This document shows positions 3,909 to 13,733 of a stretch of 37,793 nt of DNA, one piece after another. Position 1 is the stretch's first letter. Every line of letters starts with the position of its first letter. Where the stretch lies: assembly GCA_013335405.1 (NCBI GenBank), contig JAAXVR010000027.1:1-37793 (forward strand), written 5' to 3'. Source of the stretch: Chlorobiaceae bacterium (lineage in GTDB: Bacteria > Bacteroidota > Chlorobiia > Chlorobiales > Chlorobiaceae). The notes under the pieces were generated by a model that was not told the origin of the DNA, ran no database searches, and saw only the letters and a program-made list of their open reading frames with translations. The position numbers and the translations under genes were made by a program.

Positions 3909-4925
3909 TCAGGCTTTTATTTTCCTCGCGGCATTAAGCAGCCTGTGGGTCAGATGGAACTTCCTGTACTCCTCATGGTTGAGCAGTTTGACCAGGAGCG
4001 CTTTCTGGACATGCAGGCGATTTTCCGCCTGATCGATGATAATGGAACGGGGTCCGTCCATGACTTCTCCGGTTATCTCCTGTCCCCGATGAGCCGGCAT
4101 GCAGTGCATGACCACTGAGGTCGGTTTTGACAGAGCCAGAAGTGAGCTGTTGACCTGAAAAGGCGAGAAAATCCGCAGACGCTCTTCCATTTCATCCTCC
4201 TGACCCATGCTTGTCCATACATCGGTATAAAGCACGTCGGCACCTTTTACGGCGACTTCGGGATCATGGAGCACTTCAATACGGCTGATTCCCTTTGCTT
4301 TTGCAGTTTCGAGCAGTCCCATATCAGGCGTATACCCTTCAGGGCAGGCGAGCACGAAATGAATCGGAAGGAGGCCGGCAAGCTCGATCCACGAATTCGC
4401 GACGTTGTTGCCGTCACCGATGAACACGACCTTTATCCCTTCATGCCACAGATTGTTTTCATAAAGCGTGAACGCATCGGCAAGCACCTGGCAGGGATGC
4501 GACAGGTCGGTGAGCGCATTGATGACCGGGATGGTGGAATGTTCTGCAAGTCCTTCGATAATCTCGTGTTCGTGAACCCTGGCAACAATGGCGTCGTTAT
4601 AACGGGAAAGAAGCCGCGCAATATCCTCTACCGCTTCTCGTGAGCCCAGGCCGATGGACTTTCCGTCAAGATTGATGGCATACCCTCCAAGTTCATGTAT
4701 TCCGAGCTCGAAAGACACCCTCGTACGTAACGAGGGTTTACTGAAAATCATCGCCACCGTTTTGTCTCGCAGGGGTCGGAATGGTTCTGTCGAAAGGTTT
4801 TCCTTGCGTTTGCTCTTGACGAACAGCGAAAAATCGAACAGCTCGATGACCTTTGCGGCGTCGAGTGCCGAAAAGCCAAGAAAATCACGCTTTCCTGCTG
4901 TATTCTTTTTTTTTGCGTCTTCCAT
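3909..4925 (-). CDS. argF: Ornithine carbamoyltransferase
   Basis: This enzyme converts ornithine and carbamoyl phosphate to citrulline. The carbamoyl-phosphate loop appears as SKPSLRTR (residues 62-69; family STRTR), followed by DLSHPCQVLADAFT with the HPCQ motif. The ornithine-side motif HCMPAHRG is near the C-terminus. The length, 338 residues, is slightly above the usual 305-335 because of a Lys-rich N-terminus (MEDAKKKNTAGKRD). It begins 5 bp after argB stops and ends 13 bp before argR starts, consistent with one transcript. Confidence 0.97.
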   Translation of the reverse strand: MEDAKKKNTAGKRDFLGFSALDAAKVIELFDFSLFVKSKRKENLSTEPFRPLRDKTVAMIFSKPSLRTRVSFELGIHELGGYAINLDGKSIGLGSREAVEDIARLLSRYNDAIVARVHEHEIIEGLAEHSTIPVINALTDLSHPCQVLADAFTLYENNLWHEGIKVVFIGDGNNVANSWIELAGLLPIHFVLACPEGYTPDMGLLETAKAKGISRIEVLHDPEVAVKGADVLYTDVWTSMGQEDEMEERLRIFSPFQVNSSLLALSKPTSVVMHCMPAHRGQEITGEVMDGPRSIIIDQAENRLHVQKALLVKLLNHEEYRKFHLTHRLLNAARKIKA

Positions 4926-4930
4926 TATTT

Positions 4931-5845
4931 TCAGTTGTTTAAAAAGTGATCGCAGTCCTCTTCCGAGATGAACTGTGTTCCGACACCATCGTGGGTGAAT
5001 ATTTCAAGAAGCAGCGAATGAGTCGCTTTCCCATCGATGAGATGGACCTTGCCGACTCCGCTGTCGAGCGTTTTGAATGCTGAGATCACCTTCGGAATCA
5101 TACCGCCGGATATGATGCCCTGCTCGATATAATCTGCCGCCTCTGCCTTGCAGATCGTCCTGAGGATCCTTTCACCAACATGAATACCTTCAACATCGCT
5201 GACGTAAATCAGTTTTTCGGCTTTCAGGGCAATGGCGATACTGCTTGCGGCATCGTCCGCATTGATATTGTAGATGTTACCGTCCTCATCGAATCCGATT
5301 GGCGCTATGACAGGGATCAGGCCTGCATCGCAGAGAAGATCGATATAGGCGGTGTTGATTTGTTCCACATCACCGACAAGTCCAAGCTTCTCGGCGTTGG
5401 GGGAGGGCAGAGCCCTGATGGTGTCGGCATCGAGACCCGTCACCCCGACGGCTTTCCCGCCATGCTCGCTGATAAGCTGAACGATGTCCTGGTTCACTTT
5501 GCCGGCGAGTGTCATCTGGACTACGTTGATCATCTCTGCGTCTGTAACCCTCTTTCCGTGAACGAAACGTGATGCCAGCCCGAGCTTTTCGGCTGTTTTC
5601 GTAATCGCGTCGCCACCACCGTGCACCAGTACGACCTTGATGCCGACTTTGCGGAGCAGCGTCACGTTCTGGGCGAACGTGTTCTTGAGACAATGCTCCT
5701 TCATGGCGGAACCACCATATTTGATGACGAAAGTTTTGCTCTCGAATTTGCGGATATAGGGGAGTGCCTCGATAAGCACCTGCCCGATAGCTGCCGGAGG
5801 GGCTGGCCTTGCCGGCTTCGGGTCACAGCCCGGAAAATGTTCCAT
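4931..5845 (-). CDS. argB: Acetylglutamate kinase, arginine-sensitive type
   Basis: This enzyme phosphorylates N-acetylglutamate, normally the controlled step of arginine synthesis. It has the amino-acid-kinase fold motifs VIKYGGSAM (about residues 40-48) and [10 protein letters not shown]. Residues about 20-35 read [15 protein letters not shown], resembling the N-terminal helix that links dimers into hexamers in arginine-inhibited enzymes of the Pseudomonas/Thermotoga type. From this I infer feedback inhibition by arginine, in addition to repression through argR. The length is 304 residues. The gene lies 39 bp after argJ and 5 bp before argF. Confidence 0.96.
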
Positions 5846-7188: not shown

Positions 7189-8223
7189 TTAGTAAAGAAG
7201 TCCGGTCGTTTCATCTTTGCCGAGCATGATATTCATGTTCTGGACGGCCTGCCCGGCCGCTCCTTTAAGGAGATTGTCGATCGCGCTGACGATGACGAGC
7301 GAACCGGAATCGGATATGCTGGCGATAGTGATGTCGCAGTAATTCGTATTTGCCACATGTCTTATTTCCGTCATGGATTGACGAATACGGACGAACGGAG
7401 CTTCCCGGTAGAACTCCTTGTACCGGTTCAGTATAAACTCGTTTCCGGCGGGAGATTCAAGCTGGACGTTGATAATGCTGTAAATTCCTCTCACCAGGGG
7501 TCCGATCATCGGAGTGAAAATGAATGCAAACGAAGGGGCGGAGGCGGAGGTTCCGAGCGCCTGCAGGATCTCCGGAGTATGCTGATGGCAACCGACCTTG
7601 TATGCTCTCAAATTTCCACTCATTTCCGAAAAAGAAAGTTCGGTACTGCTGCTTCTTCCGGCACCGGATATGCCGGAAACCGCAGTGCAGTTGACCAGCA
7701 GAGGTTTCAGCGATGGTTCCGTTCCGAGGAATAACGGCGCAACGGCAAGGATGATACTTGTCGCAAAGCATCCGGGATTGCTGACAGCCTTGCTCCTGAT
7801 GATTTCGTCGCGGAAAAGTTCAGGCATCCCGTAAGTCATAACGGCATCCGGATCCTTTCCTTTTTTATAGTATTTTTCATGCTCGGCAGTGTTCCTGATT
7901 CGGAAATCGCCCGACAGGTCTATGACCATTTTTCCTGCCGCAAGAAGCGGGGGAACGAGCCTGAGCGCTTCGCCATGGGGAAGTGCGAGAAAATAGATGT
8001 CGCTGTCGCACTCTCCGTTGTACTGCCGATAACTCTTCTCAATACCCAAGGCGGGATAAAGTTCCGAAACTGACCTGCCGGTCTGAGAAAACGCATAAAG
8101 CTCCCGAAGCTCGATATCCGGATGGTGACAGAGCAGTTTCGTCAGTTCCGCGCCGGAATATCCCGATGCTCCGATAATGGATGCTGTATGCTTTTTGCCC
8201 GTTTCCGACAACAATGCAGCCAT
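7189..8223 (-). CDS. argC: N-acetyl-gamma-glutamyl-phosphate reductase
   Basis: ArgC reduces N-acetylglutamyl phosphate to the semialdehyde with NADPH. The Rossmann nucleotide-binding motif GASGYSG is at residues 18-24, and the catalytic cysteine lies in SNPGCFAT (Cys152). The length is 344 residues, normal for the family. It is the first gene of the arginine cluster. The 271-bp gap upstream, shared with a divergent operon, contains a near-perfect ARG box about 107 bp before the start codon. Confidence 0.97.
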
Positions 8224-8494: not shown

Positions 8495-9415
8495 ATGTCA
8501 ATGCGTATCGCAATGAATAACCATGCATTTTTGATAAAAGCTTTTCACGACGCAAGATGGCTGGTTTTTGCTTTTATTCTGCTCTTCCTTTCCGGCTGTT
8601 TCAAGCACCCCGGAAGGGAAACCGCACGAAGCGGAAAGATGGTTTTCGCGGTTGACAACCCGCTTTCAGAAATTGCAGGAATTGAGGCCATGATGTTCAG
8701 GAATTATTATCCGGACGCCGAAATAGAAATACTTCCTACCGCACCCGTGAAAACCCTTGGCCGCATTTTCGATAAAAGCGCCAGAGCCGCCCTGATCAGC
8801 GGAGATTTCGACTCGGTGGAAGATTCTCTTTTCAGCGCCATGAAAAGGAAGATGCGCAAGGAGCCGGTAGCCCTTGACGCTATTGTATGCGTCACAGGAA
8901 AAGGAAACGGCGTTGACGGTCTTTCCGTGAAAGATATTGTTGCGATGTATTACAACGGCGGCGGAAAAGGGAAACAAAACTATCTGCTCAAGGATGATTA
9001 TCGGCTTGTTTCTGTTCTTTCCGTTATGGCAGGCAGGAAGAAAAAGGATATTCGTGCGTGGTCGTGCAGCGACGTCGACGAACTGCTGAAACGCATTGCT
9101 TCTGCAGACCAGGCTTACGGACTTCTTTTCAGATCTTCGCTCGATGCCGCTCGCGATGCCGGTATTGAGATGAAAAACATAAAAATACTTCCCGTTTCGG
9201 ATAACGGACCCGATACCTCTGCCTACTTACCGGAGCGCGATGCCATATTTGAAAACCGTTATCCTCTCGTCACAACGGTTTACTATGTATATTACCCCGG
9301 CGACGCGCTTGCCGCAGGATTCGGTTCCTGGATAAGCGGTTCAGGACAGAAAGCGTTTGAAAGGAGTTCCTTTGTGCCTTACAGGCTTACTCAACGGACA
9401 ATAATTCTGAAATAA
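8495..9415 (+). CDS. PstS-like phosphate-binding lipoprotein
   Basis: The 306-residue protein has a hydrophobic signal segment ending in lipobox LSGC (Cys35), so it should be a lipoprotein facing the periplasm. The mature part resembles PstS/PBP-like-2 substrate-binding proteins: an N-terminal beta strand, an internal SVKDIVAMYYNGG ('..i..Ifl.G' segment) and a C-terminal GSWISGSGQKAFERSSFVPY typical of the end of PstS domains. No PstCAB genes are nearby, so it may act as a sensor rather than a transport component. ATGs at 8501 and 8513 are alternative starts with no strong Shine-Dalgarno to decide. It begins a run of four plus-strand genes and ends 17 bp before a diguanylate cyclase gene. The ligand is not established. 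Confidence 0.7.
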   Translation: MSMRIAMNNHAFLIKAFHDARWLVFAFILLFLSGCFKHPGRETARSGKMVFAVDNPLSEIAGIEAMMFRNYYPDAEIEILPTAPVKTLGRIFDKSARAALISGDFDSVEDSLFSAMKRKMRKEPVALDAIVCVTGKGNGVDGLSVKDIVAMYYNGGGKGKQNYLLKDDYRLVSVLSVMAGRKKKDIRAWSCSDVDELLKRIASADQAYGLLFRSSLDAARDAGIEMKNIKILPVSDNGPDTSAYLPERDAIFENRYPLVTTVYYVYYPGDALAAGFGSWISGSGQKAFERSSFVPYRLTQRTIILK

Positions 9416-9432
9416 CAGGACGTTATAAAAGC

Positions 9433-10713
9433 ATGGGGCAGGGCAGGAACAGGAAAAACAGTCCGATAAAGACCATCATCGTTACGGGTACGGCGGGATT
9501 TCTTATTGTCATCGCCGGCACGGCCGGGTTTCTTCTTATTCAGTCAAAGATGCTTGAAAAAGTTGAAGCCATGCAACAATGCTACCTTGACCTCGTCGAT
9601 TTCAGAGGAAAGCTCAATGAGTTCGATCTGTGCAGGAAGGCTGACGAAAAAAACGGACGAGACACCCTGGAATTGACCGCAAAGGAAAACCATCAACCGG
9701 CAATGCTGCGATTCATGGAAGGGAAACTGGCCCTGGAGTTGAAAAAAGCCGGCATTGCGCCTCTGCCCCCCCTGATCGTGAACAAGGAGGGAAACCTTGT
9801 CCCCTTGACAGGCGAGAATTTCGAAACATTCAGGGCGGCTTTGCAGAACTCGATCGAAACGGCAAGAAGCAAATCGGCGGAAACGACCGCCGGGCTTGTC
9901 ACTGTCAACCAGTATTTTCTTTTTTTTATTCTTGCACTGCTTCTTGCCCTGAGCCTTACGGCAGGATGGCAGCTGCACCTCAATTACAGGCAGACCCTCA
10001 TCCCCCTTGCTCAGCTTGCCGAACAGATGAAGCTTCTGAACCGTAACATACCGGAAAGTATACACGATACAGCCGAAGAGATAAAAAAAGAACTTGCCGA
10101 AGCATCGCGGTCAAGTGACATAACCCAGATTACCGAATCCATCATGGATTTTTTTGCGGAGATCGAGGCAAAAAACAAAAAACTCGATGAAATAAATATT
10201 CGCGATGAAAAAACGAACCTGTTCAATTACCGCCATTTCAAGGAACATCTCATCACGGAAATAGAACGGGCAAAACTGACCGGCAGCAAGGTTTCGCTGG
10301 CAATGATCGATATCGATCATTTCAAGCTTTACAATGACAAAAACGGACACATAGCGGGAGACCTGGTATTGAAGCATATGGCTGACCTTATCGCATCCCA
10401 GTGTCGCACTTCGGATATCCCCGCAAGGTTCGGCGGGGAAGAGTTTGCCCTCCTTTTTCCAAAAACGGATTCGGAGACTGCAAGTGAAATTGCCGAACGC
10501 CTTCGCAGGGTCATAGGAGCCGAGCCCTTTGAAAACGAAGAAGACCAGCCCGCCGGCCAGCTTACGGTCAGCGCCGGAATCGCAACGTTTCCGTATGATG
10601 CTTCAGAATGGCATTCTCTTGTCAACAATGCCGACAGGGCACTCTATGCCGCCAAATCGTCAGGCCGCAATACCGTTGTGGCCTTTGCATCCATGAACCG
10701 TGAGATCGGTTGA
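9433..10713 (+). CDS. Membrane diguanylate cyclase (GGDEF domain)
   Basis: The 426-residue protein has two membrane segments (about 14-37 and 160-180) bracketing a periplasmic domain of about 120 residues. A short linker and a GGDEF domain (about 257-420) follow. The active site reads GGEEF (334-338), a functional variant, and RTSD (325-328) lies five residues before it, as in the inhibitory I-site. The metal-binding segment MIDIDHFKLYND and the HIAGD-LVLKHMA segment are conserved. It should make cyclic di-GMP and be product-inhibited. The periplasmic part does not match a sensor domain I recognise. The preceding gene encodes a phosphate-binding-like lipoprotein that could deliver the signal; this pairing is an inference from gene order. 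Confidence 0.93.
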   Translation: MGQGRNRKNSPIKTIIVTGTAGFLIVIAGTAGFLLIQSKMLEKVEAMQQCYLDLVDFRGKLNEFDLCRKADEKNGRDTLELTAKENHQPAMLRFMEGKLALELKKAGIAPLPPLIVNKEGNLVPLTGENFETFRAALQNSIETARSKSAETTAGLVTVNQYFLFFILALLLALSLTAGWQLHLNYRQTLIPLAQLAEQMKLLNRNIPESIHDTAEEIKKELAEASRSSDITQITESIMDFFAEIEAKNKKLDEINIRDEKTNLFNYRHFKEHLITEIERAKLTGSKVSLAMIDIDHFKLYNDKNGHIAGDLVLKHMADLIASQCRTSDIPARFGGEEFALLFPKTDSETASEIAERLRRVIGAEPFENEEDQPAGQLTVSAGIATFPYDASEWHSLVNNADRALYAAKSSGRNTVVAFASMNREIG

Positions 10714-10719
10714 AGGCTC

Positions 10720-11985
10720 ATGAAAACAGAATTGTATATTGCCAGGCGTTTTGCATTCCGGCAGCGCTCTTCATCCAAACCCACGTTCATCGTTCTTGCC
10801 TCCATCATCGGAATCGCGGTCGGAACAGCAGCACTTATCCTGACACTCTCCATCGTCAAGGGTTTTGCGGACAGCGTCGAACGTAAACTGATAAGCTTCA
10901 CTTCCCATCTCCAGGTACGGCAGCCTGACGAACAGCTGTTCCAGGAGAGCCGTTACGTAATTTCGAAGATAAAAGCCGACAGGAATGTCAGGGACGCCTA
11001 TCCTTTTATTGAAAAAAGTTTCGTTATGCGCAGCCGCATGCCTGATGGGGATTACCGCAGCAAACCGGTAATCCTGAGAGGTATGGGAGAACTTCAGCGC
11101 ACGTCATTTCTCTCGAAATTTCTCGTAGGCGGAAAAACGGTTGCGGAAACAGGCGGAAAGGAAATATCTCTTTTTGCAGGCAAAACACTTGCCGACAACC
11201 TCGGACTCGGAGTGGGAAACAAAGTCCTTCTTGTGGGCCTGGATAACAGTTCGGAGGGAGCAAGGATCGTATCTGGCAATCGGAGTATCATTGACCTTCT
11301 CTCTTCGCTCGATCTGGAAATCGGTACCGTCAGAGGGATTTACGAAACAGGCCTGCAGGAGGGATTTGACGAAACAGTCGTCTTCTGTGATCTCGGTACC
11401 CTGCAGAAACGTTTCAGCCCCATGGCGATCAGCGGTTACGATGCTGACGTGAAGGATATCACGAAACTGCCGGCAACCGTAAAACGACTCTCCGACATAC
11501 TCGGATATCCTTTTTATGCCTACACTGTTTTTGAAAGGTATGCCAATCTGTTCGAATGGCTCAAGCTCCAGAAAAATATCATGCCGCTCCTGATCGTAAC
11601 GATAACGATCGTCGCCGTTTTCAATATCATATCGACACTGCTTGTGCTTATCCTGGAAAAAACAAGAGAGATCGGCATGTTGTGCGCACTCGGACTCGAA
11701 CCTGGTAAAATCAGCAGGATTTTCATGGCCCAGGCGTTCCTGATTTCGTTGGCAGGTATTGCGGCCGGCAACCTTCTCGCCCTGTTCCTCACGCTTTTTG
11801 AACAGCGCGTCCACCTCATCAGGCTACCGGAAAAAAGCTATTTTATAAAATACGTTGCCCTGTTGCTCGACCCGGCAGATTATGCCATTGTTTCATGTTC
11901 CGTCATGGCACTTACCCTGCTTTTCGCATTCATACCAGCCAGGATAGCATCTTCCCTGAAACCGGGAACCGCTCTCGGAACCTGA
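10720..11985 (+). CDS. LolC/LolE-family ABC permease (first of pair)
   Basis: The 421-residue membrane protein begins with a cytoplasmic [15 protein letters not shown], then a membrane segment (about 22-46), a large periplasmic MacB-PCD-like domain, and an FtsX-type C-terminal region with three membrane segments (about 285-305, 330-350 and 375-400). [21 protein letters not shown] is the typical FtsX coupling region. Family knowledge: LolCE with ATPase LolD releases lipoproteins from the inner membrane for transfer to the outer membrane. No lolD is seen next to it. A GAAGG Shine-Dalgarno at 10712-10716, overlapping the stop of the cyclase gene, supports this start and translational coupling. 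Confidence 0.85.
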
Positions 11986-11996
11986 AACGATATTCC

Positions 11997-13247
11997 ATGA
12001 AAACCGGATTATGGATAGCGAGGCGATTCAGCTTTGCACGAAAACGATTCAGGATCATCAATGTCATATCCGCGATAAGCCTTGCCGGAATCGTCACGGG
12101 TGTTTCCACGCTTCTTGTCGTCATGAGCGTGCTGAACGGTTTCCAGAAACTGGCGCGCGACCTTTTCACAACGATTGAAAGCCCTGTCCAGATTGTTCCG
12201 TTCGGGAAAAAAGGAATATTCCTTCCGGATACTCTGCTTCACGCGATTCGATCGATGGATGTTGTCGGTGAAGCCGAGCCCTATGCAGAAGGAGAAGCCG
12301 TTCTGGCTGCCGGGGACAAAAGCGAACTGGTCATGGTCAAAGGCATCACCGATCAGTCCCACAGGAAGCTCGTGAAGGATATCCGGGCATCGGACCCGTT
12401 ATTTCAGGGCGAGACTCTTTCTGCCGGGCAGCAATTGGCCTTGAGAACAAACCTCTCCCCCCTGAAGCCGGTAAAAATTTTCAGTCCCGAACTCATATCG
12501 CTCGGCCTTGAATCTCTTTCAGATCCTTACTTGCTGCCGGCGCTGGAAATCCCGCAAAGCTCCATATCGTCGGTCTTCTCAGTACAGCGGATGTTCGACG
12601 ATCGTTATCTGCTTACCTCGGATATGTTCGCGCAGAAAATCCTGCTGTTCGAAAGAGGGGAGTATTCCGGTATCGATATCTGGCCGGAAAAGGGAATATC
12701 GAATCGCAGGCTTGAACAGCGAATCCGTGCATGGCTGGCCGTGAGTCCGATGAAGAATACCTTCAGGGTGAGAACCCTCGAAGACAAATACAGAGCCATT
12801 TTTACGGTCATGCAGCTTGAAAAATGGGTGAGCTTCAGCGTGCTGATGCTCATCGTTCTGGTAGCGGCATTGAGCCTTACCGGATCCCTGGCCATGACCG
12901 CTATCGATAAACAACGCGAGTTGTTTTACCTGCGATGCCTCGGGCTGGAAAAACCGCAGTTCATGGCGATTTTCATTATCCAGGGCGGGATGACCGGCAT
13001 AGCCGGCACGGCAGCCGGCTCTGTTATCGCATGGGGAATCTGCAGGCTCCAGGAACTCTACGGTCTCGTCCAGTTGCCCTCGAAAAACGCATTTCTTATA
13101 TCGTCATACCCTGTAAGCATGCATGCCGGTGATTTTATCACCGTCGGCGTTACGGCCGTCTTGCTCTGCATTGCTGTAAGCCTCTATCCGGCGAGAAAAG
13201 CGGCTCTTATTGCCACAAGCCGTTCGCTTGACGTGAAAACCAACTGA
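11997..13247 (+). CDS. LolC/LolE-family ABC permease (second of pair)
   Basis: The 416-residue protein has the same architecture as its upstream neighbour: N-terminus [15 protein letters not shown], a membrane segment (about 22-46), a periplasmic domain, then three membrane segments and the FtsX-like region [20 protein letters not shown]. The frame stays open 34 codons upstream into the previous gene, but the ATG at 11997 gives the N-terminus shared with the paralogue, so I use it. The two genes are 11 bp apart and look like an ancient duplication that would form a heterodimeric permease. The ATPase must be encoded elsewhere. It ends the four-gene run and converges on a GNAT gene. Confidence 0.85.
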
Positions 13248-13280: not shown

Positions 13281-13733
13281 TCATTCGAGTTGTTTTCTGA
13301 ATACAATCATATCTGATTTTACAAATCCCTTCGATGCATAGACTCTGTGAGCCGCAACGTTATCCGTATCAGTAAGAAGGGTGATACGGCCGAAACCCGC
13401 ATCGATGGCATATTCGATTGCGGAATCGATGAGAAGGGAGCCGATACCCCTCTTTCTCCATGCCGGCGATACGATCAAGTCTTCGAGAATTGCGACCTTC
13501 TGTCCAAGAAAGGTGCTGATCGTGAAGAGCAGCATAACCATGCCCTGAACTTTCCCTTCTATTTCACAGACAATAATCATTCCGGTTTCAGGATTGTCAA
13601 GGACCAGCGATATTCCTTCTGTCTGCCTCTTCGGATCGGCGGTAAACTCCCGCTCCTGGTTGAAGAGAATGCCGAGAAGTTCCGTACAGGCCGGCAGATC
13701 GGAAGACAATGCTTTTCTTGTTATGGGCGCCAT
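13281..13733 (-). CDS. GNAT-family N-acetyltransferase
   Basis: The 150-residue protein covers a complete GNAT fold. Motif A reads LIVSPAWRKRGIGSLLI, with the R-x-x-G-x-G/A acetyl-CoA pyrophosphate loop (RKRGIG). Motif B is represented by NVAAHRVYASKGF near the C-terminus. The acetyl acceptor cannot be told from the sequence. It is a single minus-strand gene between the LolC-like gene (convergent, 33-bp gap) and the Gdt1-like gene (divergent, 207-bp gap). Confidence 0.85.
   Translation of the reverse strand: MAPITRKALSSDLPACTELLGILFNQEREFTADPKRQTEGISLVLDNPETGMIIVCEIEGKVQGMVMLLFTISTFLGQKVAILEDLIVSPAWRKRGIGSLLIDSAIEYAIDAGFGRITLLTDTDNVAAHRVYASKGFVKSDMIVFRKQLE

Follow-up and report, generated by a model that had tools for sequence, protein, structure and literature searches.

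The window analyzed here is a 37,793-bp stretch of a Chlorobiaceae genome, in which four genes follow one another on the plus strand with intergenic gaps of 17, 6 and 11 bp, as the original prediction had it. The first gene (8495..9415, 306 amino acids, with the start perhaps at Met7, position 8513) encodes a lipoprotein of the PstS fold (PBP_like_2), hereafter SBP, with a lipobox LSGC (Cys35) at 8588..8599. It is followed by a 426-residue diguanylate cyclase (DGC; 9433..10713) and by two FtsX/MacB_PCD permeases, a LolC-like one of 421 residues (10720..11985) and a LolE-like one of 416 residues counted from an internal ATG (11997..13247). The flanks, which lie outside the system, are argC (7189..8223, minus strand), a conserved divergent neighbor, and argJ upstream on the opposite strand, and a GNAT acetyltransferase gene (13281..13733, minus strand), a common convergent neighbor, and GDT1 downstream. 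Neither pstCAB nor lolD is found in this neighborhood, which the original prediction had also stated; a LolD-like ATPase gene stands alone beside proA on contig C62, its 279 bits falling under its own curated cut-off of 308.

Pfam assigns the SBP to PBP_like_2 (51.9 bits versus a cut-off of 27) and the cyclase to GGDEF (149 bits). Both permeases match FtsX and MacB_PCD, the MacB_PCD match of LolE being just under the cut-off of 27 at 26.6 bits. The top match of both in NCBIfam is lolCE, at 185.7 and 177.4 bits. Since these scores are below the curated cut-off of 362, we consider "LolCE-like" the safe name for the pair. The features of a LolCE-type system that we find are an FtsX domain with a MacB-like periplasmic core, a pair of permeases, and a LolD-like ATPase encoded elsewhere in the genome.

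The cyclase has two transmembrane helices flanking a periplasmic domain (about residues 37-163; 9541..9921), followed by a coiled linker and the GGDEF domain. The periplasmic domain, originally put at 120 residues, has roughly 125; it is predicted to be all-helical and evolves fast. An RxxD inhibitory site (R325-D328) precedes the GGEEF catalytic motif (residues 334-338) by five residues, and the two together span 10405..10446. In an alignment of 25 rows, the catalytic, feedback and metal/GTP residues GG(D/E)EF, R325, D328, D293, D295, N301, D302 and D310 are invariant, and because of this the enzyme should be active and subject to product inhibition. The AlphaFold model of the cyclase is mediocre (pLDDT 66).

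The SBP has the fold of PstS, a type II periplasmic binding protein. The top Foldseek match is 4jwo at 1.2e-10; by VIA, 4omb reaches a Z of 15.9 with an rmsd of 9.2 over 191, and a Z of 15.0 is obtained with an rmsd of 2.7 over 136. The AlphaFold model is of moderate quality (pLDDT 63) and its last 45 residues are unreliable. Two further PBP_like_2 proteins of the same genome are canonical PstS proteins with GSTTVGP, SGSGNG and RESNSGT. The SBP of the operon lacks all three phosphate motifs (GSTT, SGSG, SGT) and carries AVDNPLSEIAG, TAPVK and YLLKDDYRLVS in their place, and these stretches vary among its relatives. The most conserved part of the protein is the C-terminal YPLVTTVYYVYYPGD...GFGSW...GQKAFER...RTIILK segment. 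A Cys occupies the lipobox position in all Chlorobium SBPs inspected (a few miss the strict pattern, the Cys being visible by eye), whereas the 17 Chlorobaculum SBPs carry a transmembrane segment at the N terminus and lack the Cys; our genus groups g1 and g2 are taken to be Chlorobium and Chlorobaculum, respectively. As a transmembrane anchor replaces the lipobox in Chlorobaculum, the SBP is probably retained at the inner membrane, close to the cyclase.

An SBP match is present in 81 of the 86 Chlorobiaceae genomes, and the order argJ-argC / SBP-DGC-LolC-LolE / acetyltransferase recurs across the family. Over distinct family loci, the medians are 4 bp for the SBP-DGC gap, 4 bp for the DGC-LolC overlap and 13 bp for the LolC-LolE gap; in most Chlorobium the 4-bp overlap is that of the DGC stop and LolC start codons. 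The order within the family is by itself weak evidence, because the argJ/argC and acetyltransferase flanks are syntenic too and the order could simply be inherited. The sister families f3 and f4 are more telling: there, a contiguous SBP2-SBP1-DGC-LolC-LolE block lies between quite different flanking genes, with TonB just upstream of it in f4. The tandem SBP2-SBP1 pair occurs upstream of or near the cyclase in L112, L114, L115, L117, L118, L143 and L145, and SBP2 is longer at its N terminus by up to about 100 residues.

The arrangement is not rigid. Several Chlorobaculum have lolCE 0.3-5 kb away from the cyclase, yet SBP and DGC are still adjacent, and in L117 and L120 a gene that reads from its sequence as D-lactate-dehydrogenase-like follows the cyclase and precedes lolCE. 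In the Chloroherpeton-like genome G090, DGC-LolC-LolE is unbroken, with the SBP pair some 14-18 kb upstream of it; an SBP is 4 kb upstream in G151, and the operon genes are unlinked in G191. In one Chlorobium clade (L049, L052, L092, L093, L096, L097, L099 and L101), LolC follows SBP/cyclase and no lolE is found in the next 4-7 kb, so that LolE may be encoded elsewhere or LolC may act alone. Nevertheless, recurrence across the family and in other families of the order rules out a chance or strain-specific gene order. SBP-DGC-LolC-LolE is a real, old operon and, as far as the cyclase search in 394 genomes of the phylum reached, a trait of Chlorobiales.

The cyclase stands alone in most of these organisms. 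Exactly one GGDEF match is present in 58 of the 86 Chlorobiaceae genomes, and in 57 of them, including the genome studied here, it is the cyclase of this locus (the exception is G007). A second cyclase copy, about 50% identical, occurs apart from SBP/LolCE and beside other signaling genes in L121 (G033, 4537-5820) and L122 (G060, 270-1541). No EAL domain was found in any of the 86 genomes, and PilZ was found in one impure low-quality bin only. HD-GYP (HD_5) was not found in the 14 tested Chlorobium in which the cyclase of the locus is the only GGDEF protein (this genome included, and G040, a bin with two locus copies, being counted as single-GGDEF), but is present in all five tested Chlorobium with extra GGDEFs. 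No MshEN domain scored above the cut-off in this genome and 20 relatives. A search for the c-di-GMP-I riboswitch gave 0 matches in the 86 genomes, the control genomes being equally silent. Hence, by the domains found, most Chlorobiaceae appear to synthesize c-di-GMP without a known breakdown enzyme or receptor. A lone cyclase in such a family is unexpected and is a new point that goes beyond the original prediction. The literature that we searched, to which most subscription journals did not belong, contained no report of a c-di-GMP enzyme from green sulfur bacteria, nor of any link between a cyclase and LolCE.

How closely the SBP and the cyclase depend on each other can be judged from their evolution. 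On a species tree built from ArgC, ArgJ, LolC and LolE, Chlorobium has lost the cyclase on several occasions (6 changes by parsimony, the frameshifted G016 included), and 14 cyclase-less genomes keep the SBP, usually with LolC 2 bp behind. The rate of SBP evolution relative to the reference genes is unchanged in these 14 genomes (1.96 versus 1.94, Mann-Whitney p 0.84); its constraint has not relaxed, which weakens the idea that the SBP is a mere accessory of the cyclase. Conversely, G023 (a 66% complete bin) keeps DGC-LolC-LolE and is missing the SBP in place. The branch rates of the SBP do not covary with those of the cyclase's periplasmic domain (rho -0.07, p 0.58; 38 taxa, low power), whereas the control pairs do (LolC-LolE 0.50, the periplasmic and cytoplasmic cyclase halves 0.47, ArgC-ArgJ 0.62; 38 taxa). 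The test is noisy, as a few pairs with no expected link covary too (ArgC-GNAT 0.55, SBP-ArgJ 0.43). Because the SBP survives loss of the cyclase, G023 keeps a cyclase without the SBP, and their rates do not covary, the two proteins are not strictly interdependent. The original reading is supported in part: the operon is conserved, and a membrane-tethered, binding-protein-like SBP does adjoin an intact cyclase with a periplasmic domain, but an obligate SBP-cyclase sensor is unproven and is weakened by the constant SBP rate in the cyclase-less genomes, by the absent covariation, and by G023 and G090.

Several of these genomes deserve a description of their own. Most cyclase-less genomes carry other GGDEF proteins, which might have taken over in some of them, whereas the cyclase-less G079 (99% complete) has no GGDEF protein at all. 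In L011 (9657-11636) and L129 (3740-5719), where SBP and LolC no longer have the cyclase between them, a PAS/GAF-GGDEF gene of the same orientation lies some 185 bp downstream of LolE. In L081, from the single-contig Chlorobaculum genome G016, a six-G run within the GGDEF motif of the cyclase is frameshifted (reverse strand, near 4330-4340); this genome has no other GGDEF, and the frameshift is either a natural knock-out or a sequencing error. In L123 (G023), another gene (8939-10072) occupies the position of the SBP between argC and the cyclase.

The best explanation of these data, to which we give a probability of about 40%, is that the locus is an envelope-sensing operon in which the SBP tunes the cyclase. 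An ancestral Chlorobiales operon would combine the cell's single c-di-GMP synthase with an inner-membrane-tethered periplasmic protein of the PstS fold and the LolC/LolE permeases, presumably on one transcript. The SBP would act on the cyclase at its helical periplasmic domain, from protein to protein or by means of a ligand other than phosphate, and c-di-GMP would thereby report on the state of the envelope. The SBP would have at least one further envelope role that is independent of the cyclase, and LolCE would be co-expressed from the same transcript. Regulation of the cyclase by the SBP, much as in NspS-MbaA, would explain most simply in functional terms why the two are persistently adjacent and share a location; it is possible but unproven. 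In its favor are the tight adjacency of the two genes, the block kept despite changed flanks, the SBP and DGC staying together where lolCE has moved, the placement of both proteins at the periplasmic face of the inner membrane, the invariant catalytic residues, and the lack of any other GGDEF protein in 57 of the 86 genomes. The evolutionary tests, on the other hand, give this relation no support. The operon hints at a link between the envelope and signaling without proving one, and a coupling of LolCE to the c-di-GMP signal is speculation based on co-transcription only.

About as likely is that the genes are co-transcribed without any direct contact of their products. The SBP would then perform an envelope task derived from the PBP_like_2 proteins associated with TonB/ExbBD in other Bacteroidota, LolCE would export lipoproteins, and the cyclase would be an independent passenger with a stimulus of its own. 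Outside the order, the SBP family is indeed found in STAS-ExbB-ExbD-ExbD-TonB-SBP-TPR clusters (domain names read from the sequence, TonB being confirmed by Pfam for L114), and TonB still precedes the block in f4. The same explanation is favored by the repeated losses of the cyclase, which leave a constrained SBP 2 bp from LolC, and by the SBP and the cyclase having no common rate variation. It fits less well with an order that is kept across families and with an SBP and DGC that remain neighbors where lolCE has moved off.

Direct regulation of LolCE by the cyclase or by its product, which would put lipoprotein release under c-di-GMP control, is improbable. The stop/start codon overlap of DGC and LolC in most Chlorobium, the contiguous DGC-LolC-LolE of G090 with its distant SBPs, and a weak covariation of the cytoplasmic part of the cyclase with LolC (rho 0.36, p 0.004, uncorrected) speak for it. 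Against it are the displaced lolCE of several Chlorobaculum, the gene inserted between the cyclase and lolCE in L117 and L120, and the 14 genomes that have lolC without the cyclase; moreover, we know of no c-di-GMP-binding domain in LolC/E. Least probable is the sensor of phosphate or another anion originally suggested, in which phosphate bound by the lipoprotein would switch the cyclase: the PstS-like fold and the Pfam family agree with it, but we reject phosphate sensing by the SBP, as it has lost the phosphate motifs that both PstS paralogues of this genome retain, its relatives vary in this region and pstCAB is not nearby.

A bolder reading is that most Chlorobiaceae possess a minimal system of one cyclase and no known phosphodiesterase or receptor, run by a phosphate-blind protein of the PstS fold and wired to lipoprotein release. 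We regard this as unlikely; if true, a c-di-GMP receptor still awaits discovery, and an envelope machine like LolCDE might be that receptor. Provided that the enzyme works, c-di-GMP in most green sulfur bacteria comes from a single source, which makes them a clean one-gene setting for finding a new c-di-GMP receptor and for asking which envelope cue drives the signal.

Parts of the operon resemble known systems. The LolC/LolE-like permease pair and the LolD-like ATPase encoded elsewhere in the genome are shared with the LolCDE transporter, from which the locus differs in scores that fall under the curated lolCE cut-off and in an operon common to a cyclase. With PstS, the SBP shares its fold and the Pfam family PBP_like_2; unlike PstS, it has lost the phosphate motifs, has no linked PstCAB and is membrane-anchored beside a cyclase.

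The nearest relatives of the SBP outside the order belong to the Bacteroidota ExbB-ExbD-ExbD-TonB-PBP_like_2-TPR clusters, where the protein goes with TonB/ExbBD and a TPR protein and not with a cyclase and LolCE. In Riemerella anatipestifer, the tonB2 operon has downstream of it a gene for the substrate-binding protein of a phosphate ABC transporter (PMC4446302). Also of note is that the Bacteroidota proteins of such clusters that we inspected (L130-L142 and L147-L149) miss most of the PstS phosphate motifs. From these sequences their annotation as "phosphate-binding" appears doubtful, and a large group of Bacteroidota proteins so annotated may not bind phosphate.

NspS is a polyamine-binding, PotD-like protein. 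Control of a c-di-GMP enzyme by a periplasmic binding protein has a precedent in NspS-MbaA, which occurs in Vibrio cholerae and in Sinorhizobium (PMC8967002, PMC9993111). The Chlorobiaceae enzyme is GGDEF only, in a family where no EAL was found, whereas MbaA combines GGDEF and EAL; furthermore, the SBP is PstS-like and anchored by a lipid or a transmembrane segment, and the operon includes LolCE. What the two systems have in common is that a periplasmic binding protein is encoded next to a c-di-GMP enzyme of the membrane that has a domain in the periplasm.
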